This document shows, one piece after another, positions 12,985 through 23,130 of a stretch of DNA of 64,000 nucleotides (the stretch's first letter is position 1; each line of letters starts with the position of its first letter). The notes below the pieces were generated by a model. The model saw nothing but the letters and a program-made list of their open reading frames with translations. It was not told the origin of the DNA and made no database searches. The DNA comes from Streptomyces sp. RFCAC02 (lineage in GTDB: Bacteria > Actinomycetota > Actinomycetes > Streptomycetales > Streptomycetaceae). A program made the position numbers and the translations under genes. The DNA is taken from positions 1,405,501 to 1,469,500 of the forward strand of contig NZ_SAUH01000001.1 in NCBI RefSeq assembly GCF_004193175.1. The letters are read 5' to 3'.

Positions 12985-13501
12985 GGTGACCTCCTGCTGT
13001 TCCGTCGGCGGGCCGGCGGGCGGCCCGTCGGTTCGATCATGGGGTGGTGCGCATGCCGGTGCCGAGTGACGTTGCCGTTCCGGCAAACGCCGCGCGCCCG
13101 GATCGTCGGGGTGTGATTTCGGCCACTCCACGTCGGCCGGTGGACGCGGGCGGAGCCCCGCCCCGGGGCCGTTTCGTCAAAGCTTGGACGAACGAAAGCG
13201 GAACTCGTGCGACATCTGTCAACGTAGAGGCAGATTGGGGGAGTTCGTCCCTGTCCATCGGCGGTGCCCCCTGTTAGGATCAGCCCGCCTGACGCTCTTG
13301 GCCGAAAGACGACCGTGCCACGGGACCCGCCGCCTCCGCGGCCGGGTCCGGCGGACACGCGCCGCCCGCCGGGACGCGGTCGCGGCATCCGGATCCCGAA
13401 GCGCCGGCCTCCCCCGCGGCCGGCGGCGCCGGCCTCCCCGGGCGCCCGCGCCGGCCGGTCCTGAGCCCGGGCGACACGACACCATGAACCGCGGAGGCTC
13501 C
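12985..13501. other. 517-bp region with no convincing gene
   Basis: Frames here are shadows without ribosome sites or codon bias. It holds the promoter of the epoxide hydrolase (its strong AGGAGG reads leftwards from 12996), a small palindrome TGCCGTTCCGGCA around 13073-13085, an A/T-richer stretch near 13180-13215 likely to contain a promoter, and a TTAGGAT -10-like element near 13275 reading towards the MFS gene. Confidence 0.5.
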
Positions 13502-13635
13502 ATGCCGCCTTCCACCGCCCCTGCCGCCCCACCGCGCCCCTCCCCCGCGGCGCCGAAGGTCCCCGGGTCCCCCGTCACCACGCCCCCGCCCCCACCACCG
13601 AGGGGCGTGCCGCCGCCTGGCCCGCCGCCGTATGG

Positions 13636-14802
13636 GTGCTGCTCATCGGCACGTTCGCCGTCCGGGCCGCCGGATTCGTCTACCCCTACCTCGCCTACCA
13701 CCTCTCCGACCGCGACGTCGGCTCCCGGGCCGTCACGGTGATCCTGGCGTTGTTCGGCGCCGGCTGGCTCACCGGCCAGTTCCTGTGCGGCGCCCTCGCC
13801 GACCGCATCGGCCGCCGCGCCACGCTGGCCGGCGCCATGGTCACAGCCGCCGCCGTCTTCCCCGTCCTGGCGCAGAGCCACACCGTCGCGTCGCTCGCGG
13901 CGGCGTCCTTCGTCGCCGGTTTCGTCTACGACTCGCCGCGCCCCATCGTGGCCGCCGTCATCGCCGACACCGTGCCCGACGAGCCGACCCGCGCCCGTAT
14001 CGCCGGCTGGCGGCACTTCGCCACCAACCTGGGCGCCGCCGTGACCGGCGCCGTCGGCGGCGCGCTCGCCGCACCGCTCGGCTTCCCCGTGCTGTTCCTG
14101 ATCAACGCGGCGGTCTGCGCCGCGTTCGCGGCCGTCGTGCTGAAGGCCGTCCCCTTGACCGCCCCCGGCGCCGCCACCGACCCGGCGCCGTCCGGGAGTT
14201 ACCGCGCCGCGTTCGGCGACGTCCGGCTCGTCCTGCTGTGGTTCATCAGCCTGTGCGCGTTCGTCCCCCTGATGGCGCTGTACTCGATCCTGCCGCTGAT
14301 GATGACGGAGGACGGCCTCCCCGCGTCCGCCTACGGATGGTCACAGGCGGCCGGAGCGGCGGCCGTGCTCATCCTGTCGCCGCTGATGAACGGCTGGCTG
14401 GCGCGCCGCGCGTCCGGTCCCTCCCCCATGGTCGGCCTGCTCGCCGCCGGCACGCTCGTGCTGGGCGTCGGCATGGGATCGGCGGGCTTCGCGTCCGGCG
14501 CGGCCGGTTACGCCGCCGCCGTCGTCCTCTCCGTGCCCGGCGAGATCGTGGCGTTCGTCGCGGCGGCCGACGTCCTGAACCGCATATCCCCGCCCCACGC
14601 CCGCGGCCTGTACGCCGGAATCTGGGGGACGGCCATGGCCGCTTCCGTGCTGCTCGCACCGCTGCTCGCGGGCTGGTGCCTGGCCGCAGGCGGCCATCTC
14701 CTCGTCGCGGCGGCCCTGTTCGGCTGCGGGCTCGCCGGAGCCGCCGTCTCCGTCCCCCTCAACGGACTGACGAGGCGCACCTCGCCGGTCCTCGCATCAT
14801 GA
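13636..14802 (+). CDS. MFS transporter (N-terminus uncertain, possible frameshift)
   Basis: 388 residues as read from GTG 13636, with about 11-12 membrane helices and MFS loop motif GALADRIGRRATLAG after helix 2. Similarity to small-molecule exporters should begin a few residues upstream (WPAAVWVLLIGTF). A well-placed GGAGG and ATG at 13502 exist but in another frame; that frame enters a Pro run at 13580-13600, where a C-homopolymer error or real frameshift of one base would join it to this frame. The gene is followed by an ATGA overlap (14799-14802) with the ATP-grasp frame, so it likely exports that enzyme's product. Confidence 0.8.
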   Translation: MLLIGTFAVRAAGFVYPYLAYHLSDRDVGSRAVTVILALFGAGWLTGQFLCGALADRIGRRATLAGAMVTAAAVFPVLAQSHTVASLAAASFVAGFVYDSPRPIVAAVIADTVPDEPTRARIAGWRHFATNLGAAVTGAVGGALAAPLGFPVLFLINAAVCAAFAAVVLKAVPLTAPGAATDPAPSGSYRAAFGDVRLVLLWFISLCAFVPLMALYSILPLMMTEDGLPASAYGWSQAAGAAAVLILSPLMNGWLARRASGPSPMVGLLAAGTLVLGVGMGSAGFASGAAGYAAAVVLSVPGEIVAFVAAADVLNRISPPHARGLYAGIWGTAMAASVLLAPLLAGWCLAAGGHLLVAAALFGCGLAGAAVSVPLNGLTRRTSPVLAS

Positions 14803-14831
14803 TCAGCACGTCGAATCCCCCGGAGACACCC

Positions 14832-16097
14832 ATGAACCACGTTTCCAACCCCCTTCTCCTCCTCGGCACCGGCGGCCCCACTGTGGCCGCGGCCGCCTAC
14901 CGCGAGCCCTGCCTCGCCGACATCGCCGCCGCCCGCCCTGTCGTCCTGGTCGACGAGCACGCGCCCGAGTGGGCGCGCCCTCACCTGACCGACCACATAG
15001 CGGTGGACCTCCGCGACGCGGAGGCGACGGCGGCCGCGGTCAAGGCGTACGCCGAACGGCAGCCCCTGAGCGGCGTGATGACGTACATGGAGGGCCATGT
15101 CATCACCACGGCCGTCCTCGCGCGCCAGCTCGGACTGCCCGGCGCCACGCCCGAGTCGATGGAGGCGTGCCGCGACAAGGCGCGGACGCGGCACCTCCTG
15201 GACGTGCACGGCGTGCCCTCCGCGCGCTCGGTCCTGGCGGACGACGCGGACGCCGCCGTCGCCTGGGCCGAGGCGAACGGTTTCCCCGTCATGCTCAAGC
15301 CCCGGTCGCAGGCGGCCAGCGCGGGCGTGGTGCGGGCGGATTCGGCGGCCGAGGTGCGGGTGGCGTTCGACCGGGCCACCCAGGAGACCTACAGCGGCAT
15401 CGGCCAGGTCGGTCCGCAAGGCGTCCTCGTGGAGGAGTTCCTCGACGGCCCCGAGATCAGCGTGGAGGTCGCCGTCCTCGGCCCGGGCGACAGCCGGATC
15501 ATCGCCGTCACCCGCAAGCGCGTCGGGCCGCCGCCGACCGCCCAGGAGTACGGGCACTGCGTCGACGCCCGCGACCCGCTGCTGACCGATCCCGAGCTGA
15601 CCGGCCTGCTCACCGCGGCGGTGGACGCCGTCGGCGTGACGCGCGGCACGCTGTGCATCGAGGTCATGCTGACGGCCCGCGGCCCGCGCATCGTCGAGAT
15701 CAACGGCAGGATCGGCGGCGACCTGCTGCACATCCTGATCCGCGAGGCCATGGGCCTCAGCCTGTCGGGGATCGCGGCGGACATCGCCGCCGGGGTCGGT
15801 CCGCAGCTCACGCCGACCCGTGAGCGAGCCGCCGCCATCCGGTTCCTCTACCCGGACCGCACCGGTGTCCTCGACCGCCTGACGGCCCCGGCACACCTGT
15901 CCGAGCCCGACTGGGTGGAGCGGCTCGTCGTCACGGCCGCGCCGGGCACCCCGGTGGCCGCGCCGCCGGCGGCCTCGTACGACGACCGCCTCGCCCACTG
16001 GATCGTGCGGGGCGACGACCCGGAGCAGTGCACGGCACGCCTCGACGAGGTGGAGGCCGGAATGGACCTGGCCATCACCCCCGCCGACGGCCACTGA
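14832..16097 (+). CDS. ATP-grasp ligase (amino-acid/peptide ligase type)
   Basis: 421 residues from ATG 14832 (GGAG 7 nt upstream); an ATG at 14799 overlapping the MFS stop would add 11 residues. Structure: N-terminal Rossmann-like domain, ATP-grasp domain from about 110 (VMLKPRSQAASAGV lysine and glycine loop; VEEFLDGPEISVEV), metal site IEVMLTARGPRIVEINGRIGGD, then a C-terminal domain. It resembles carboxylate-amine ligases such as BacD/L-amino-acid ligases that form dipeptides through acyl phosphates. With an MFS exporter, SARP activator and SagB-N-like protein it suggests a small peptide product. Substrates are unknown. Confidence 0.85.
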   Translation: MNHVSNPLLLLGTGGPTVAAAAYREPCLADIAAARPVVLVDEHAPEWARPHLTDHIAVDLRDAEATAAAVKAYAERQPLSGVMTYMEGHVITTAVLARQLGLPGATPESMEACRDKARTRHLLDVHGVPSARSVLADDADAAVAWAEANGFPVMLKPRSQAASAGVVRADSAAEVRVAFDRATQETYSGIGQVGPQGVLVEEFLDGPEISVEVAVLGPGDSRIIAVTRKRVGPPPTAQEYGHCVDARDPLLTDPELTGLLTAAVDAVGVTRGTLCIEVMLTARGPRIVEINGRIGGDLLHILIREAMGLSLSGIAADIAAGVGPQLTPTRERAAAIRFLYPDRTGVLDRLTAPAHLSEPDWVERLVVTAAPGTPVAAPPAASYDDRLAHWIVRGDDPEQCTARLDEVEAGMDLAITPADGH

Positions 16098-16110
16098 CGC
16101 ACCACCGACC

Positions 16111-16144
16111 GGGCCGGGGCACGGCACCCGCCGCACCCCGGCCC
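16111..16144. terminator. Hairpin after ATP-grasp gene
   Basis: A 9-bp perfect stem (GGGCCGGGG at 16111-16119 and its complement at 16136-16144) lies 14 bp after the ATP-grasp stop, so SARP transcription probably starts anew in the 184-bp gap that follows. Confidence 0.55.
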
Positions 16145-16328
16145 CGGCTGCCCGGTCGTCACAAGCACCCCGCACAGAGGGCCGGACGCTGTCGGCCCCC
16201 GGTCTCCGGGCGGCCGTATGACGACGTCATGGTCCGCCCCTGACGGATCCACGGGCGGACCGGTGACGCCGTCCCTGTCGGTCCCGCCCCGCCGCGTGAC
16301 AGGGTCGTGCCGGCAGGGAGGAGCGGAC

Positions 16329-17141
16329 GTGGAGTACTTCGTGATCGGGTTGCTGGGGCCGCTGTCGGTGCAGGTCGGCGGTGTCCCCGTGGCGCCCAGC
16401 GCCGGCCAGCAGCGCAGGCTGATGGCGCTGCTCGCGGCGAACCTGGGGCGGGAGGTCGGCATGGCCGCGATCGAGGAGGAACTGTGGGCGGGACGGCCCC
16501 CAGGACGTCCGGCCGCCGCCGTGCAGACGTACGTCAAGGAGCTGCGCCGCCGGATCGGTGACGCCGTGGTGACGCTGCCGGACGCGGTGGACCCGAAGCA
16601 GATCCTGAGCCGCGGCCACGGCGGCTACCGCCTCGGCGGGCCGGGCGCCGTCCTGGACGTCCACGACTTCGAGCGGTCCGTGCGCGACGCGTCCCGCGCG
16701 CTCGCCGCGGGCGACCACGAGGAGGCGTCGCGCCGGCTCACGGCCGGACTCGCGCTGTGGCGCGGCCGGGCGCTGGACGACGTACGCGGCGGGGGCGCGC
16801 TGCGCGCGGAGGCGCTGCGGCTGGACGAACTGCGGCTGACCGCCCTGGAGACACGGATCGGCGCCGACCTCCACCTCGGCCGGCACGCCCGGCTGATCAG
16901 CGAACTCACCGCGCTCACCAGCCTCCACCCCTTCCAGGAGAACCTGCACGGCCAGCTCATGCTGGCGCTGCACCGCAGCGGCAGGCAGTCGCGGGCACTG
17001 GACGTGTACCGGTGCCTGCGCGCGAGGTTCGTCCGGGAACTCGGTATCGAACCGTCACGCCGGCTCCGGGCGCTGCACCGGTCGGTCCTGGCCGCCGACC
17101 CGGCACTGGACCCGCCGGCGCTCGCGGGCCTCGCCTCCTGA
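16329..17141 (+). CDS. SARP-family transcriptional activator (OmpR-type wHTH plus BTAD)
   Basis: 270 residues from GTG 16329 (GGGAGGAG about 6 nt upstream). Residues ~5-95 form an OmpR-like winged helix starting with IGLLGPLSVQVGG and containing LWAGRPPGRPAAAVQTYVKELRRRIG. Residues ~105-250 match the bacterial transcriptional activation domain (DVHDFERSVRDA..., LHPFQENLHGQLMLALHRSGRQSRALDVY, LGIEPSRRLRALH). Such SARPs are pathway-specific activators of antibiotic clusters, so it likely controls the adjacent MFS, ATP-grasp and SagB-N-like genes. Small SARP without NB-ARC domain. Confidence 0.9.
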   Translation: MEYFVIGLLGPLSVQVGGVPVAPSAGQQRRLMALLAANLGREVGMAAIEEELWAGRPPGRPAAAVQTYVKELRRRIGDAVVTLPDAVDPKQILSRGHGGYRLGGPGAVLDVHDFERSVRDASRALAAGDHEEASRRLTAGLALWRGRALDDVRGGGALRAEALRLDELRLTALETRIGADLHLGRHARLISELTALTSLHPFQENLHGQLMLALHRSGRQSRALDVYRCLRARFVRELGIEPSRRLRALHRSVLAADPALDPPALAGLAS

Positions 17142-17191
17142 CGGCCCGTACCGGCCGAACCCGACGCCCGACCGCCCACCCGAGGTTCCCC

Positions 17192-17806
17192 ATGCGACGC
17201 ATCGCCGCGGAGGCGCGTACGTTCCACCTCCGGTCCCTGACGGAGGACGTCACACTCGACCAGGAGAGCGGCGGGGACGCGCTGGTCCTCCTCAGCCGCT
17301 GGGGGACCGACCGCGTCGACCGGCCGTCACCCCGCGTCCGCGAGGTGCTGCGCCGCATGGCCCTCGGGCCGGTGCTGCTCACGGGAACGCCGGAGCCCGC
17401 GGACGGCGAACCGGTCGTCCCCCGTGTGCTGGGGCGGCTCTCCCACCTCGTGATCCACACCCTCGGCGTGGACGACCTGCGCGGTCCCCTGCTCTCGGCC
17501 CTGCCGGTCGCGCGGCATGCCGCGTTCCCGCGCGTCCGGTTGTCCGAACGGCAGCCGGTGCGTGCGGCGGGTCCGCTGCTGCTGACCACCCGCGGCTCCG
17601 GGTGGGTGCTGAAGCACGCCGGCTCGCCGTACCGGGTGATCGTGCACCGGTCGGAAGCGGCCCTGGTGGCCTCCCTCCTGGCCTGGCCCGTGACGCCGGG
17701 GGCGGCGTCGGCCGCCCTGCGGCTGCCGCCCCGTGTCACGGCGGCCGTCATCGGCCACCTGGTCGCGGCGGGGATCGCCGAGCCGGTCGGACGTCCGGCG
17801 GACTGA
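17192..17806 (+). CDS. SagB N-terminal-like protein lacking the nitroreductase domain
   Basis: 204 residues from ATG 17192 (GAGG 7 nt upstream), 50 bp after the SARP. I see two successive beta-strand/winged-helix-like units: TFHLRSLTEDVTL...ALVLLSRWG...VREVLRRMALG...LGRLSHLVIHTL, then GPLLLTTRGSGWVLKHAG...ALVASLLAW...VTAAVIGHLVAAGIAEP. This matches what I remember of the region preceding the FMN-nitroreductase domain in SagB-type azoline dehydrogenases of RiPP clusters, but the catalytic domain is absent. No YcaO gene is nearby. It may be a stand-alone peptide-binding partner for the ATP-grasp ligase. Assignment is tentative. Confidence 0.55.
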   Translation: MRRIAAEARTFHLRSLTEDVTLDQESGGDALVLLSRWGTDRVDRPSPRVREVLRRMALGPVLLTGTPEPADGEPVVPRVLGRLSHLVIHTLGVDDLRGPLLSALPVARHAAFPRVRLSERQPVRAAGPLLLTTRGSGWVLKHAGSPYRVIVHRSEAALVASLLAWPVTPGAASAALRLPPRVTAAVIGHLVAAGIAEPVGRPAD

Positions 17807-17810
17807 GCCC

Positions 17811-17824
17811 GCCGCCCGGGCGGC
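17811..17824. terminator. Short palindrome between convergent genes
   Basis: GCCGCCCGGGCGGC is a perfect 14-bp palindrome between the SagB-N-like stop (17806) and the response regulator stop (17826). It would fold with a minimal loop and is a modest terminator candidate. Confidence 0.4.
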
Positions 17825-17825
17825 C

Positions 17826-18434
17826 TCACACGAGCCAGTCGGACTCCCGCGCTATGCGGATCGCGTCGACACGGTTGCGCGCGTTCAGCTTGGTGACGAC
17901 GGTGGTCAGGTAGTTCCGCACGGTGCCCGGGGTCAGGTGCAGGGCCGCGGCTATCTCCACCGCCTCGTGCCCCTGCGCGGCCAGTCGCAGCACCTCCGTC
18001 TCCCGCTCGGTGAGCGGGCTCTCCAGGCCGTCCCACGCGGCGAGCGCCAGCTCGGGGTCCACGACCCGCTGTCCCGCGTGCGCCCGGCGCACCGCGTCGG
18101 CGAGCCGTTCCGGGGATTCGTCCTTGAGCAGGAACCCGGAGACCCGGGCGGCCAGCGCGCGTCGCAGGGTGCCAGGGCGGCCGAGGCTGGTGAGGATCAG
18201 GGTCCGGCACGAGGGCATCTCCTCGTGCAGCCGCGCGGCGGCGGTGAGCCCGTCGACACCGGGCAGGTCGATGTCGATGACCGCGACGTCGGGCCGTGTG
18301 GCGCGGGCGGCCGCCAGGATCTCGTCGCCGCGCGCGAGTTCGCTCACCACGTCGAGATCGTGCTCCAGGCCGAGCAGGGCGACGAGGGCACCGCGCACCA
18401 TGTGCATGTCCTCGGCCAGCAGGATGCGGATCAC
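17826..18434 (-). CDS. LuxR/NarL-family response regulator
   Basis: 202 residues from GTG 18434. Receiver domain 1-120 with acidic pocket AED (7-9), phospho-acceptor Asp54 in VIDIDLPG, and Lys near 105 (FLLKDESPE). C-terminal LuxR HTH about 137-195 (LTERETEVLRLAAQGHEAVEIAAAL...). It resembles DesR-like regulators paired with a five- or six-helix HisKA_3 kinase, which is the next gene upstream (74 bp). Probable target is the divergent ABC system. Confidence 0.9.
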   Translation of the reverse strand: MIRILLAEDMHMVRGALVALLGLEHDLDVVSELARGDEILAAARATRPDVAVIDIDLPGVDGLTAAARLHEEMPSCRTLILTSLGRPGTLRRALAARVSGFLLKDESPERLADAVRRAHAGQRVVDPELALAAWDGLESPLTERETEVLRLAAQGHEAVEIAAALHLTPGTVRNYLTTVVTKLNARNRVDAIRIARESDWLV

Positions 18435-18507
18435 GGCGGTGCTCCGTTCGTGCGGTACGGCGTCCGCCCGAGCGTAGCAACCGCTCGGGCGCGCCCGGTG
18501 GCTGCGC

Positions 18508-19680
18508 TCAGGACGCCGGGCCGGTGTGGACGCCGGGGGCGCCGGGCGTCCGCTGTGCCGCCCGGCCGACCGGTGCCTCGGCGACGAGCAGGAACGTGCC
18601 GTCCGGAGCGCGTCGCCACGTCAGGGTGCCGCCGACGGCCCGCAGCCGGGCGGTCAGGTTGCCGAGCCCGCTGCCGCCGTCCGGCTCGGACGGGCCGGAC
18701 GGCTCGCCGTGCGCGCCGTCATTGGTCAGGGACAGCCGCACGACCCCGTCCACGGCGGCCGCGTCGATCCCGCAGCGGGTCGCGCGGCTGTGCCGCAGCA
18801 CGTTCGTCACCCCCTCGCGCAGCACGGTCGCGAGCGCCGTGTCCACCGTGCCGCTCACGGTGCCGAGCCGGACGTCCGCGTGCACGGTGATGCCCGCGGC
18901 GTCCAGGGTGGTCCGCGCCGAGCGGACCTCCTCCTCCAGCGACAGGTCCCGGTAGCCGCTGGCGACCGCGCGGACATCGGCGAGCGCCTGGCGGGTGATC
19001 ACGAGGACGTCCTCGACCTCGGTCACGGCGCGCCCCGGCTGGTCGGGGATGAGCCGCCGGATCAGCTCCCCCTTGAGCGCCACGGCGGAGAGGCTGTAGC
19101 CGAGCAGGTCGTGCAGGTCGCGGGCGAACCGCAGCCGCTCCCGGGAGACGGCCGCCCTGCTCAGTTCCTCCCGCGTGTCGTGGAGCGCCCGGACGACCTC
19201 GGTGAGCCGGGTGAGGCCGTAGGTGACCAGTCCTGTCAGCAGGGTCGCCTGGACGTAATAGACGATGGTGCGGGGCGGATCGCCCCACTGGATCCCCGGC
19301 ACGAGCAGGCTGATGCCGACGAGCCCGTACAGCGGCCATGCCCACGGGGGCGGCAGGAGCAGCAGGATCGATCCGGCGAGGAACCCCGCCATCGATCCCC
19401 AGGCGCTGTCGAAGACGACGAGCGGGAGGTACGTGAGGGCCGCCTGCAGACCGAGCGTCCAGCCGGTGCGGCGCAGCGGTGCCCGGCGGGCGCCCGGCGC
19501 GGAGTGCACCAGTTGCAGCGCGTAGACCGCCGCCATCGCGGCGAAGGCGGCCGCGGAGCCGAGGGGCGACAGGCCGGCGTCCCCGATGTTCATGGCCGTG
19601 ATGCCGAAGTAGCACAGCAGCGCGACGTGCAGGATCGTCCGGGCCATGCGGGGCGCGGGCGGTTCGTCGCGTCGCGGCAT
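18508..19680 (-). CDS. DesK-like sensor histidine kinase
   Basis: 390 residues from ATG 19680. Five or six N-terminal membrane helices (about 14-160) without a large outside domain imply membrane-state or small-amphiphile sensing. HisKA_3 dimerisation motif RFARDLHDLLGYSLSAV carries the phosphorylated His190. The HATPase region has GVTNVLRHSRAT and GSGLGNL. Partner is the response regulator 74 bp downstream. The Pro/Gly-rich C-terminus (last ~20 residues) is dispensable-looking. The divergent MacB/FtsX-type transporter suggests a BceRS-like or membrane stress response. Confidence 0.9.
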   Translation of the reverse strand: MPRRDEPPAPRMARTILHVALLCYFGITAMNIGDAGLSPLGSAAAFAAMAAVYALQLVHSAPGARRAPLRRTGWTLGLQAALTYLPLVVFDSAWGSMAGFLAGSILLLLPPPWAWPLYGLVGISLLVPGIQWGDPPRTIVYYVQATLLTGLVTYGLTRLTEVVRALHDTREELSRAAVSRERLRFARDLHDLLGYSLSAVALKGELIRRLIPDQPGRAVTEVEDVLVITRQALADVRAVASGYRDLSLEEEVRSARTTLDAAGITVHADVRLGTVSGTVDTALATVLREGVTNVLRHSRATRCGIDAAAVDGVVRLSLTNDGAHGEPSGPSEPDGGSGLGNLTARLRAVGGTLTWRRAPDGTFLLVAEAPVGRAAQRTPGAPGVHTGPAS

Positions 19681-19722
19681 CCGGGGTCCCTCCGCCGGTC
19701 GGGATCGGGACTAGGGAGCTTA

Positions 19723-19740
19723 GTCGAGTACGTGTACGAC
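19723..19740. promoter_or_regulatory. Interrupted palindrome in divergent HK/ABC promoter
   Basis: GTCG at 19723-19726 and CGAC at 19737-19740 flank a partly symmetric centre containing ACGT. It lies 42 bp before the kinase start and 59 bp before the ABC start, where a response-regulator site would control both. Imperfect; candidate only. Confidence 0.3.
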
Positions 19741-19798
19741 GTGATCGGCGACAGTGAAACCTCAGAGCGCCCTCAGCCGGGTGCGCGACGGTGGCCGC

Positions 19799-20590
19799 AT
19801 GAGAGGCACACAGGACTCCCCGGACGGGGAGACGGACGCCGTACGGCTCGAAGCCGTGCGCAAGGTCCATGGCAGACGGAACGCGGTGACCGCCCTCGAC
19901 ACCGTGGACGTGCGGCTGGCGGGCGGCAGTTTCACCGCGGTGATGGGCCCCTCGGGGTCGGGCAAGAGCACCTTCCTCCAGTGCGCGGCCGGCCTCGACC
20001 GGCCGACGTCGGGATCCGTGCACCTCGACGGCGTGGAGCTGACCCGGCTCGGTGAACGCCGCCTGACCCGGCTGCGCCGTGAGCGCATCGGCTTCGTCTT
20101 CCAGGCGTTCAACCTCCTGCCCGGACTGACCGTGTCCGACAACGTCACCCTGCCGCTGCGGCTGGCCGGCCGCCGTCCCGACCGGGCCGCGGTCCGGGCC
20201 GTGCTCGACCGGGTGGGCCTGGGCGACCGGCTGCGCAGCAGGCCGGGCGAGCTGTCCGGCGGCCAGCAGCAGCGGGTCGCGATCGCGAGGGCGCTGGTCA
20301 CCGGACCCGCGGTGGTCTTCGCGGACGAGCCCACCGGCGCGCTCGACACCCGGACCGCGCAGGATGTGCTCGACCTGCTGCGCGACACCGTGCGGCAGGA
20401 CGGCAGGACGGTCGTCATGGTCACGCACGACCCGGTCGCCGCCGCCCGCGCCGACCGCGTGCTGTTCCTGACGGACGGGCGGATCACCGATGAGCTGGAC
20501 CGGCCCACGGCGGACGCGGTGGCCGGGCGCATGGCGCGTCTCGGCCGTCCGGCGGCCGACCGGCACATCACGGCCGGGGGTCCGCGGTGA
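19799..20590 (+). CDS. ABC transporter ATPase, MacB/LolD type
   Basis: 263 residues from ATG 19799; a GTG at 19754 would add 15 residues. Walker A GPSGSGKST (50-58), Q-loop FQAFNLLPGLTV, signature LSGGQQQR, Walker B VVFADEP followed by TGALD, H-loop VTHDP. Sequence and length are of MacB/YknY ATPases that partner FtsX-fold permeases. Its stop overlaps the permease GTG (GTGA at 20587-20590), so they are coupled. Confidence 0.93.
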   Translation: MRGTQDSPDGETDAVRLEAVRKVHGRRNAVTALDTVDVRLAGGSFTAVMGPSGSGKSTFLQCAAGLDRPTSGSVHLDGVELTRLGERRLTRLRRERIGFVFQAFNLLPGLTVSDNVTLPLRLAGRRPDRAAVRAVLDRVGLGDRLRSRPGELSGGQQQRVAIARALVTGPAVVFADEPTGALDTRTAQDVLDLLRDTVRQDGRTVVMVTHDPVAAARADRVLFLTDGRITDELDRPTADAVAGRMARLGRPAADRHITAGGPR

Positions 20591-23130
20591 GGATCGCCCT
20601 CGGCAACCTGCGCCATCACGCGACGGGCCACATCGCGTCGTTCATCGCGCTGTTCCTCGGCGCCACGGTCGTCATCGGCTGCGCGGGGCTGCTGGAGACC
20701 GGCATACGGAACGCCGCCCCGCCGCAGCGTCTCGCCGCCGCGCCGATCGTGGTCGCGGGTGACCAGCGGTACCACGGGACCGAGCAGGAGTTGGTGTACC
20801 CGGAGCGGGTGCGGCCCGACGCGGGCACGGCCGGCATCGTGGCCGCCGTCCCCGGCGTCGCGGACGTGGTCACGGATGTCTCCGTGGCCGCCGTGCTCCA
20901 CGGCGGCACGGACGTCACGGCCCACGGCTGGTCGTCCGCGCGGCTCACGCCGTACCGGATCGCGGAGGGCGAGCCGCCCTCGGGGCCGGACGGGATCGTC
21001 CTCGGCGAGCAGCTCGCCCGCGAGGCGGGGCTGCGGCCGGGGGACCGGGCCGGACTGCGCGTGAACGGCACCCCGCGGGACTACATCGTGTCGGGCGTCG
21101 CCTCCGGAACCGGGGACGGCGGCACCGTCTTCCTGGCCGACGCCGAGGCCGACCGCCTCACCGGCCTGCTCCCGGGGCGTGCCGGCACGTTCGACGTCGC
21201 CGGCGTGTTCCCGGAACCCGGCGCCGACATCGACCGGGTGGCCCGGGACGTCCGCGCCGCCGTCGCCGAGCACCCGGTGGCCGACCGTCCCCTCACCGTC
21301 CTGACCGGCGACGGGCGGGGCCGGGCCGAGGACCCGTCGGTCATCGCGGACGGGGGCGACCTGGTGCCGCTGGCCGCCGCGTTCGGCGGACTGTCGGCGA
21401 TGGTCGCCGTCTTCGTGGTGTCGGGCACGCTCGGCCTGGCGCTGCGCCAGCGGCAGCGCGAGACGGCCCTGCTGCGGGCGATCGGCGCCACACCGGGCCG
21501 TATCCGCCGCATGATCGCGGGCGAGACCCTGGTCCTCGCGGTGCTCGCGACGGCACTGGCCCGGTACCCGGGGGAGCGGTTCGGGCGGTGGCTGCTCGGC
21601 GAGTTCGCCGACGCCGGGGTCGTCCCCGATGCGATCGCCTACCGTGCCGGCTCCCTGCCGCCGGTCCTCGGCAGCGCGACGGTGCTGCTCACGGCGCTGG
21701 CGGCGGCCCTGGTCGCGGCGAGCGGCGCCGCGCGGACCCGGCCGGCCGAGGCGCTCGCCGAAGCCAGTGTGGAACGCCGCCCGTTCAGCCGGATCCGGCT
21801 GGTCACCGGCGTGCTGTGCCTGGCAGGCGGTGCGCTGCTGGCACGGGGCACCGCCGGTTCCGACGGCCCCGACGCCGCCGGGGTCGCCACTCCCGCGGTC
21901 ATGGTCTGGGCGGCGGCGGTCGGGCTCCTCGGTCCGCCCCTCGTGCGCACCGCCATGGCCCTGCTGCGCGGCCCGGCACGGCGGGTGGCCGGGCTCGCCG
22001 GGGAACTGGCGGTGGAGAACACCCGTACCCGGCTCTCGCGCGTCGCCTCGGCCGTCACACCGATCATGCTCGCCACCGGGCTCGCGCTGAGCCTCGTCCT
22101 CATCCACAGCAGCGAGGAGGAGGGCGCACGCCGGGCGTCCGAGGAGCAGGTGCGCGCCGATCTCGTCGTCTCCCCCGGCGCCGGCGGCCTGCCGTCCGAC
22201 CTCGTCGAGACGATCGGGGAACGGACCGACGTCGCCGCAGCGACCGCGCGGCTCACCAGCACCGGCTTCCTCGAACCCGCCACCGACCCGGCCGCCGCGC
22301 CGCCCGCCGACGAGGAGGAGGCGGGTCCGCAGCCGACCGAACTGCCGCTGTGGGGCGTCACACCGGACGGCCTCGACCGCACGACGTCCTTCACGGCGGC
22401 CGAGGGCAGCCTCGCCGACCTCGACGGGGACACCATCGCCCTGCCCACGCGGTACGCCGCCGGGCTCCGCATCGGCGACACCGTCCCGGTACGGCTCGGC
22501 GACGGCGCCCGGGTCCGGCTCACCCTGGCCGCGACCATCGAGGCACGCCCCGGTTACGAGACGGCCCTCGTGCCCGTGTCCCTCCTGCTCCCCCACACCG
22601 ACGCGGGCGCGGTCCGGGAGATCCTGGTGCGCACGGCGGCGGGCACCGACCGCTCGGACGTGGCGGCGGCCATCGAGGCCACGGCCGGCGTGCGGGCCGA
22701 CGGACGGGAGACGCTCGCGGCGGAGCGGGACGGGACCCAGACGACGATGGCGAACCTGGTGCTCGGGGTCGTCGTCGGCTACGCGGCGATCGCCCTGGTG
22801 AACGCCCAGGTGCTGGCGACGGCCGAGCGGCGCCGTGAACTCGCCCTGCTCCGGCTCGTCGGCGCCGGACGGCGGCAGGTGCTGCGGATGATGACGGTCG
22901 AGTCGACGCTCGTCGCCGTGGCGGGCATCGGACTCGGGGCGCTCGTCGCGGGGGCGACGCTGGTACCGGTGGCGCTGAGCCTGCTCGACTCGGTGCTGCC
23001 CGCCGGTCCCGCGTGGCTCCCCGCCGTGGTGGCCGCGTCGGCGCTCCTGCTGACGGCCGCCCCCACGCTCCTCGCCTCCGGCGCGGCGCTGCGGCACCGG
23101 CCCGGCGCCGTGGTGGCGACACGGGAGTGA
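20587..23130 (+). CDS. FtsX-family ABC permease (duplicated MacB type)
   Basis: 847 residues. One N-terminal helix (about 11-35), a ~200-residue outside domain, three helices (about 255-375, with LRQRQRETALLRAIGATPGRIRRM-type FtsX loop), a further helix at ~480-505, a second outside domain, and three C-terminal helices with the second FtsX signature TAERRRELALLRLVGAGRRQVLRM (about 735-760). This two-copy FtsX layout is typical of actinobacterial lipoprotein/peptide efflux or mechanotransmission permeases. It does not pump through the membrane like type I exporters. Likely regulated by the adjacent two-component system. Confidence 0.9.
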   Translation: MRIALGNLRHHATGHIASFIALFLGATVVIGCAGLLETGIRNAAPPQRLAAAPIVVAGDQRYHGTEQELVYPERVRPDAGTAGIVAAVPGVADVVTDVSVAAVLHGGTDVTAHGWSSARLTPYRIAEGEPPSGPDGIVLGEQLAREAGLRPGDRAGLRVNGTPRDYIVSGVASGTGDGGTVFLADAEADRLTGLLPGRAGTFDVAGVFPEPGADIDRVARDVRAAVAEHPVADRPLTVLTGDGRGRAEDPSVIADGGDLVPLAAAFGGLSAMVAVFVVSGTLGLALRQRQRETALLRAIGATPGRIRRMIAGETLVLAVLATALARYPGERFGRWLLGEFADAGVVPDAIAYRAGSLPPVLGSATVLLTALAAALVAASGAARTRPAEALAEASVERRPFSRIRLVTGVLCLAGGALLARGTAGSDGPDAAGVATPAVMVWAAAVGLLGPPLVRTAMALLRGPARRVAGLAGELAVENTRTRLSRVASAVTPIMLATGLALSLVLIHSSEEEGARRASEEQVRADLVVSPGAGGLPSDLVETIGERTDVAAATARLTSTGFLEPATDPAAAPPADEEEAGPQPTELPLWGVTPDGLDRTTSFTAAEGSLADLDGDTIALPTRYAAGLRIGDTVPVRLGDGARVRLTLAATIEARPGYETALVPVSLLLPHTDAGAVREILVRTAAGTDRSDVAAAIEATAGVRADGRETLAAERDGTQTTMANLVLGVVVGYAAIALVNAQVLATAERRRELALLRLVGAGRRQVLRMMTVESTLVAVAGIGLGALVAGATLVPVALSLLDSVLPAGPAWLPAVVAASALLLTAAPTLLASGAALRHRPGAVVATRE

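Follow-up and report, generated by a model that had tools for sequence, protein, structure and literature searches.

A probable junction of an exporter–ligase pair and the regulatory and export end of a larger cluster in Streptomyces sp. RFCAC02

Four codirectional genes of Streptomyces sp. RFCAC02 code for an MFS exporter, an ATP-grasp enzyme, a SARP activator and a protein related to the N-terminal domain of SagB (SagB-N), and they raise the question of whether they form a single cluster dedicated to a ligase-derived peptide, as the first-pass annotation had proposed. They lie in a stretch of 64 000 nucleotides (G000:C1:1405501–1469500, here called the window) of a 6.13-Mb genome, the completeness of which is given as 98.7 per cent. 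The four genes are real, all being called by a codon-usage gene caller; a cruder GC3 filter called the MFS and SARP genes only and missed those of the ATP-grasp and SagB-N proteins. The identities assigned from the letters alone were correct, as established by Pfam for the first three and by a structure model and an alignment for the fourth. The reported absence of YcaO and nitroreductase also holds: the YcaO and nitroreductase matches of the genome (nine for the latter) all fall outside the window.

We consider it likely that the region is the junction of two modules: module A (13636–16097), an exporter with a ligase, and module B (16329–23130), the end of a larger cluster at which regulation and export are encoded. 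The two modules look independently inherited and now stand side by side. Their features are listed in table 1.

Table 1. Features of modules A and B (positions in the window).
Feature	Coordinates	Strand	Evidence and remarks
MFS exporter, module A	13636..14802	+	PF07690 132 bits; start codon unsure
L-amino-acid-ligase-type ATP-grasp, module A	14832..16097	+	PF13535, PF18603 LAL_C2, PF18130; 3vot 3.5e-22
Gap between modules	16098..16328	.	Sequence; candidate separate promoter region
SARP activator, module B	16329..17141	+	PF03704 161 bits; alternative start 16218
Stand-alone SagB N-domain protein, RRE-like, module B	17192..17806	+	Nitroreductase domain absent
NarL-type response regulator, module B	17826..18434	-	PF00072, PF00196; convergent with SagB-N
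HisKA_3 sensor histidine kinase, module B	18508..19647	-	PF07730
MacB-type ABC ATPase, module B	19781..20590	+	PF00005
FtsX-type ABC permease, module B	20587..23130	+	PF02687

The four-gene set and the exporter–ligase pair

The 4.2-kb DNA carrying the four genes was compared with 392 Streptomyces genomes (391 other than that of the window), one or two candidates being scored per genome. Among the matches listed from the 391 other genomes, none covers both the MFS–ATP-grasp pair and the SARP–SagB-N pair; the former is matched in, for example, G128, G378 and G095, and the latter in G199 and G177. No called gene matching SARP or SagB-N is present in any of 17 ATP-grasp loci (16 relatives and G378). 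Among 59 mapped SagB-N loci, an MFS match of at least 100 bits is found in none and an ATP-grasp homologue of at least 80 bits in one (L147). On these three comparisons a single conserved four-gene cluster is rejected, and the tempting call of such a cluster is corrected. The first-pass annotation had itself proposed a search for the neighbourhood in other Streptomyces and had taken lack of conservation as evidence against its cluster: the gene identities stand, as does a ligase distinct from PurK and CarB (see below), and the conserved four-gene unit, within the genomes and loci compared, does not. The SARP and SagB-N genes have conserved partners of their own outside 13636–17806, and the conserved neighbourhood extends past 17806.

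The gap between the modules is 231 bp long; with the SARP start at 16218 it shrinks to 120 bp. No convincing SARP-type repeats that would link the modules, including upstream of the MFS gene, came from a simple scan made without a computed background. Lying just downstream of module A, the SARP could still control it.

The start of the MFS gene is unsure because, in its frame, no ATG, GTG or TTG follows the stop at 13462 until GTG 13636. An ATG at 13502, within the interval 13462–13636, is out of the MFS frame; either the start is unsure or the sequence has a slip. The alternative start of the ATP-grasp gene, at 14799, overlaps the MFS stop. The ATP-grasp protein matches PF13535 (58.2 bits) and LAL_C2 PF18603 (46.5 bits, for a cut-off of 29.4) in Pfam, and the solved structures nearest to it are those of L-amino acid ligases, 3vot (BL00235; 3.5e-22) and 30vh (1.2e-20). 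The 10 best-matching ATP-grasp loci code for proteins 46–73 per cent identical to it. A window-type MFS gene lies upstream, on the same strand and within four genes, in nine of them (in L095 as a 103-aa fragment, 72% identical) and also in G378, and L103 lacks it; apart from the fragment, the MFS homologues upstream of related ATP-grasp genes are 48–64 per cent identical. In this reading module A is an exporter and L-amino-acid-ligase pair that probably produces and exports a short amide or dipeptide. By analogy with the family, the ligase would join two small acids or amino acids with ATP, and the MFS protein would export the product.

A recurrent Streptomyces neighbourhood (L096–L104 and L196) is composed of MFS, LAL-type ATP-grasp and secreted SH3_3 proteins, to which some of the loci add TrpA-like and EgtD-like (Methyltransf_33) enzymes and a protein of about 411 aa with no Pfam match. 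The combination MFS/ATP-grasp/SH3/EgtD gave no match in the open-licence PMC literature.

The stand-alone SagB N-domain family

The SagB-N protein has 204 aa and matches no Pfam or NCBIfam family. Its family profile matches only SagB-type dehydrogenases in the PDB, and weakly (E 0.04–0.05). A structure model, in which the fold is confident, gives a strong match to domain 1 of ThcOx, and a full-length SagB from another locus aligns to the protein (tblastn 6.5e-28). The model predicts both the N-terminal peptide-clamp domain of SagB-type peptide dehydrogenases and an RRE fold; the FMN nitroreductase domain of these enzymes is absent. No description of a stand-alone SagB N-domain was recognised in the titles, beginnings of abstracts and a few passages of the papers listed from the open-licence PMC literature.

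Of the 295 Streptomyces genomes in the sample, about 19 have stand-alone relatives (manual count of short frames, including the window genome and G093). In genome contigs, a pattern scan found 61 loci: 39 stand-alone, 20 with a full-length SagB containing the nitroreductase domain and two uncalled (L167 and L177). Some of these loci are from the same strains as the G genomes (e.g. L123 is G177), so that the L and G sets are not independent. In a tree from which six short or near-duplicate rows were left out (L118, L119, L121, L122, L135 and L141), 34 of the 36 stand-alone rows fall on one side of a supported branch (97/88), with L176 and L050 apart. The window protein groups with L123, L126 and L128 (98/83; L122 is not in the tree). 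L120 and G199 have a window-type SARP, yet they fall in the neighbouring clade. The alignment of 34 stand-alone sequences (A2, without L118, L119, L122, L135 and L140) has 12 invariant positions; the window protein departs from 10 of 63 conserved columns, the third most of the 34 rows.

A YcaO homologue is found within the fetched locus in 26 of the 39 stand-alone loci, and the full-length SagB stands beside one in 19 of the 20 full-length loci. A nearby nitroreductase partner was considered and rejected: a BLAST search with one SagB nitroreductase domain found none in the 39 stand-alone loci, and nearby nitroreductase rows in a 20-genome listing were judged by eye only. In the genus sample, 15 of the 18 stand-alone genomes other than that of the window have a high-scoring YcaO (323–349 bits); the exceptions are G224, with a fragmented YcaO, G017, where a contig end truncates it, and G051, with none of that score. 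Among 11 tested genomes, other than that of the window, with SagB-N and no YcaO nearby, nine carry a YcaO of 64–78 per cent identity elsewhere; YcaO is in pieces in L140/L141. The cognate YcaO is not kept by every SagB-N genome, L132, L139 and G051 having none of the close type. Both YcaO proteins tested (L120 and L037) carry TIGR03882 and TIGR03604 and are of the fused type. A small LVIE-type ORF stands before YcaO in 34 loci, of which 22 are stand-alone (47 YcaO genes examined, with a motif looser than that used for the window). This precursor-like ORF has about 60 aa, with the pattern LVIE(N/D)LD...ALFTIC.

The other partners are regulatory and export genes. The response regulator, in the window up to 79 per cent identical to its relatives, is adjacent and convergent to SagB-N in 29 of the 39 stand-alone loci, and a histidine kinase lies within six genes in 31. 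The window kinase has no HATPase_c match in Pfam, and its N- and G-boxes were read by eye in the sequence. A codirectional SARP directly upstream is found in five of the 39. The window SARP has a BTAD domain (PF03704, 161.4 bits), and its match to the OmpR-like DNA-binding domain (PF00486, 24.4 bits) stays just below the cut-off of 26.2; it is 59–66 per cent identical to the SARPs encoded immediately before SagB-N in L120, L122, L123, L126, L128 and G199. The ABC ATPase and permease are 67–72 and 54–62 per cent identical, respectively, to their counterparts in the SagB-N-linked clusters of G199, G177 and G394.

The 39 stand-alone loci form 25 flank groups and the 20 full-length loci six (groups sharing at least three flanking genes at 40 per cent identity or more), the number 25 being inflated by contig-end loci with few flanking genes. 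The 120 flanking genes scanned belong to mixed families (e.g. MFS 4, ACPS 4, AMP-binding 3, AfsA 2); the scan had no control, and no enrichment of biosynthetic functions is claimed. Another gene context of the same cassette is seen in L111, L112 and L116, where an interval of about 25 kb from SagB-N to YcaO contains GH3-family, P450 and DUF6182 genes (Pfam on L111) and a tautomerase-like gene (by eye).

Origin of module B

In the sister loci L122, L123, L126 and L128, a YcaO gene (72–74% identity) lies 57–58 kb from SagB-N on the same contig (placement checked for the first three, and by contig number only for L128). In G177 this interval codes for a protein with AMP-binding, PP-binding and thioesterase domains and an MMPL exporter (domains from L123, the same strain), and also for a LAL-type ATP-grasp, a halogenase, an ABC pair and an MbtH-like protein (the last by eye).

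A cluster of about 60 kb is seen in L033, L113–L115, L197 and L198, with a tryptophan halogenase, a partial tryptophan dioxygenase match, NRPS-type genes, a LAL-type ATP-grasp and an MMPL exporter, bounded by SARP–SagB-N–response regulator–kinase and by precursor–YcaO. Pfam confirmed the halogenase and partial dioxygenase matches in L198. This cluster might make a halogenated tryptophan-derived peptide. The halogenase is not a constant partner: the G134 copy (76%) is far from SagB-N and G250 has none.

The genome of the window lacks a close YcaO and the halogenase. The G394 halogenase, with matches of 89–91 per cent in G177, G199, G392 and G395, has none in G000, nor has the tryptophan-dioxygenase-like protein in a search without a positive control. 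No YcaO of the TOMM-cluster type was found in G000, where the sole match (31%, 59 bits) is at 5.11 Mb. In the window, tblastn gave only chance-level pieces of a hidden YcaO remnant, and no small ORF carries the LVIE motif.

The locus of this single YcaO match (L091, G000:C1:5101000–5120900) has a precursor-like 60-aa ORF with a Cys/Ser-rich C-terminus (15021–15203), separately encoded LanB N- and C-terminal domains (PF04738 and PF14028) and a nitroreductase protein. We read this cluster as thiopeptide-like.

The SagB-N and response regulator genes of the window lineage evolve faster (relative-rate chi2 4.6–9.8), the kinase partly so (0.8–4.0) and the SARP not (0.01–3.2); alternatively, the faster rates could reflect a branching of the window outside its sisters. 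Decay of module B is not evident because all its genes are intact open frames. Gene content and rates fit a cluster stripped to its control-and-export end, with partial acquisition as the alternative, and module B looks like what is left of the end of a larger cluster of the antibiotic type. Its relatives are linked to a cyclodehydratase in which a leader-binding part is fused to YcaO, and to the precursor-like ORF; both are absent here, as is the halogenase. From fold and linkage, SagB-N of intact clusters would serve as a peptide clamp (RRE) for the leader, holding the precursor for YcaO or presenting it to this enzyme with no azoline oxidation; the window copy would then probably be a retained, faster-evolving remnant. 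The kinase and regulator would control the SARP and/or the ABC pump, and together with the pump they may still sense and remove the product (orphan immunity). The source of the ligand is missing in G000, and therefore the likeliest state is one of orphan immunity or slow decay.

Other explanations have to be weighed. The four genes might be a newly assembled functional cluster, the MFS–ligase pair having been recruited under SARP and two-component control, with SagB-N assisting or regulating, to make a strain-specific ligase peptide. They are indeed intact, closely spaced and codirectional, and ATP-grasp homologues lie close to SagB-N in L043 and L147 and also within the G177/G392 cluster, the G177 protein having LAL_C2. 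However, these homologues, where identity is shown, are only 30–33 per cent identical to that of the window, and the lack of the set in the listed matches of other genomes, the intermodule gap and the lack of a convincing SARP-like repeat upstream of the MFS gene make a new cluster rather unlikely. Far less probable still is a ligase of primary metabolism, such as a PurK-, PurD- or CarB-like salvage enzyme; the first-pass annotation had named the PurK/CarB-like type as fatal to its proposal. GARS_A (42.6 bits) and CPSase_L_D2 (47 bits), both generic ATP-grasp domains, also exceed the Pfam cut-offs, and PurD comes next in the PDB ranking after the two ligases (3.1e-11), but the recurrent pairing with an exporter points elsewhere, and no NCBIfam cut-off is reached among the best 25 of 52 families. 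The enzyme is not PurK/CarB-like because it has the LAL C-terminal domain and its closest solved relatives are L-amino acid ligases.

The stand-alone SagB-N proteins could also be dead remnants of the full dehydrogenase, functionless everywhere; the adjacency of full-length SagB and YcaO and the divergence of the window copy at conserved columns would agree with this. We regard it as quite unlikely, since nearly all stand-alone sequences share one side of a supported branch, with 12 invariant positions, a confidently predicted fold and partners kept in many contexts. Conversely, SagB-N, YcaO, the LVIE(N/D)LD...ALFTIC ORF and the two-component system, at times with the SARP, might form a portable signalling cassette: the kinase would read the YcaO-modified peptide as a pheromone, SagB-N would deliver or titrate this peptide, and the window strain would be an eavesdropper that keeps sensor and pump and not the signal. 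This is unlikely in our estimation; if true, many unrelated gene neighbourhoods have received the same cassette.

With module B read as the end of a larger cluster, what recurs is a family that keeps only the peptide-clamp half of SagB. This family usually stands close to a cyclodehydratase, a precursor-like ORF and a two-component system, and its fetched loci contain no nitroreductase domain. It poses a testable question: the role of a dehydrogenase lacking its catalytic domain in a RiPP pathway, and whether the peptide is a product or a signal.

Comparison with known systems

SagB-N has the domain 1 fold in common with ThcOx and SagB-type azoline dehydrogenases, and differs from them in having no FMN/nitroreductase domain and in being encoded alone, convergent with a NarL-type regulator. 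An extract of the ThcOx study describes the N-terminal part of this enzyme as two peptide-clamp domains (PMC5108345). Residues 120–204 (approximately) of SagB-N align with the RREs of MccB, MibB, PbtF, PqqD and TbiB1; unlike these, SagB-N would consist, by analogy with ThcOx, of two tandem clamps in about 204 aa, and its window yielded no precursor. The relatives resemble TOMM/LAP clusters with a fused cyclodehydratase in their TIGR03882 + TIGR03604 YcaO and small precursor-like ORF, whereas a stand-alone SagB-N replaces the dehydrogenase, a two-component system is found alongside and the close YcaO is absent from the window genome.

The module A enzyme resembles the L-amino acid ligases BL00235, BacD and PnaC of the phosphonoalamides, in being an ATP-grasp with LAL_C2. 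BacD is a weak PDB match; PnaC, a dipeptide-forming LAL in Streptomyces according to an extract of its description (PMC11867202), is likened to the window enzyme by type and not by sequence comparison. In contrast to these ligases, some relatives of the window ATP-grasp sit with secreted SH3 proteins and with TrpA-like and EgtD-like enzymes.
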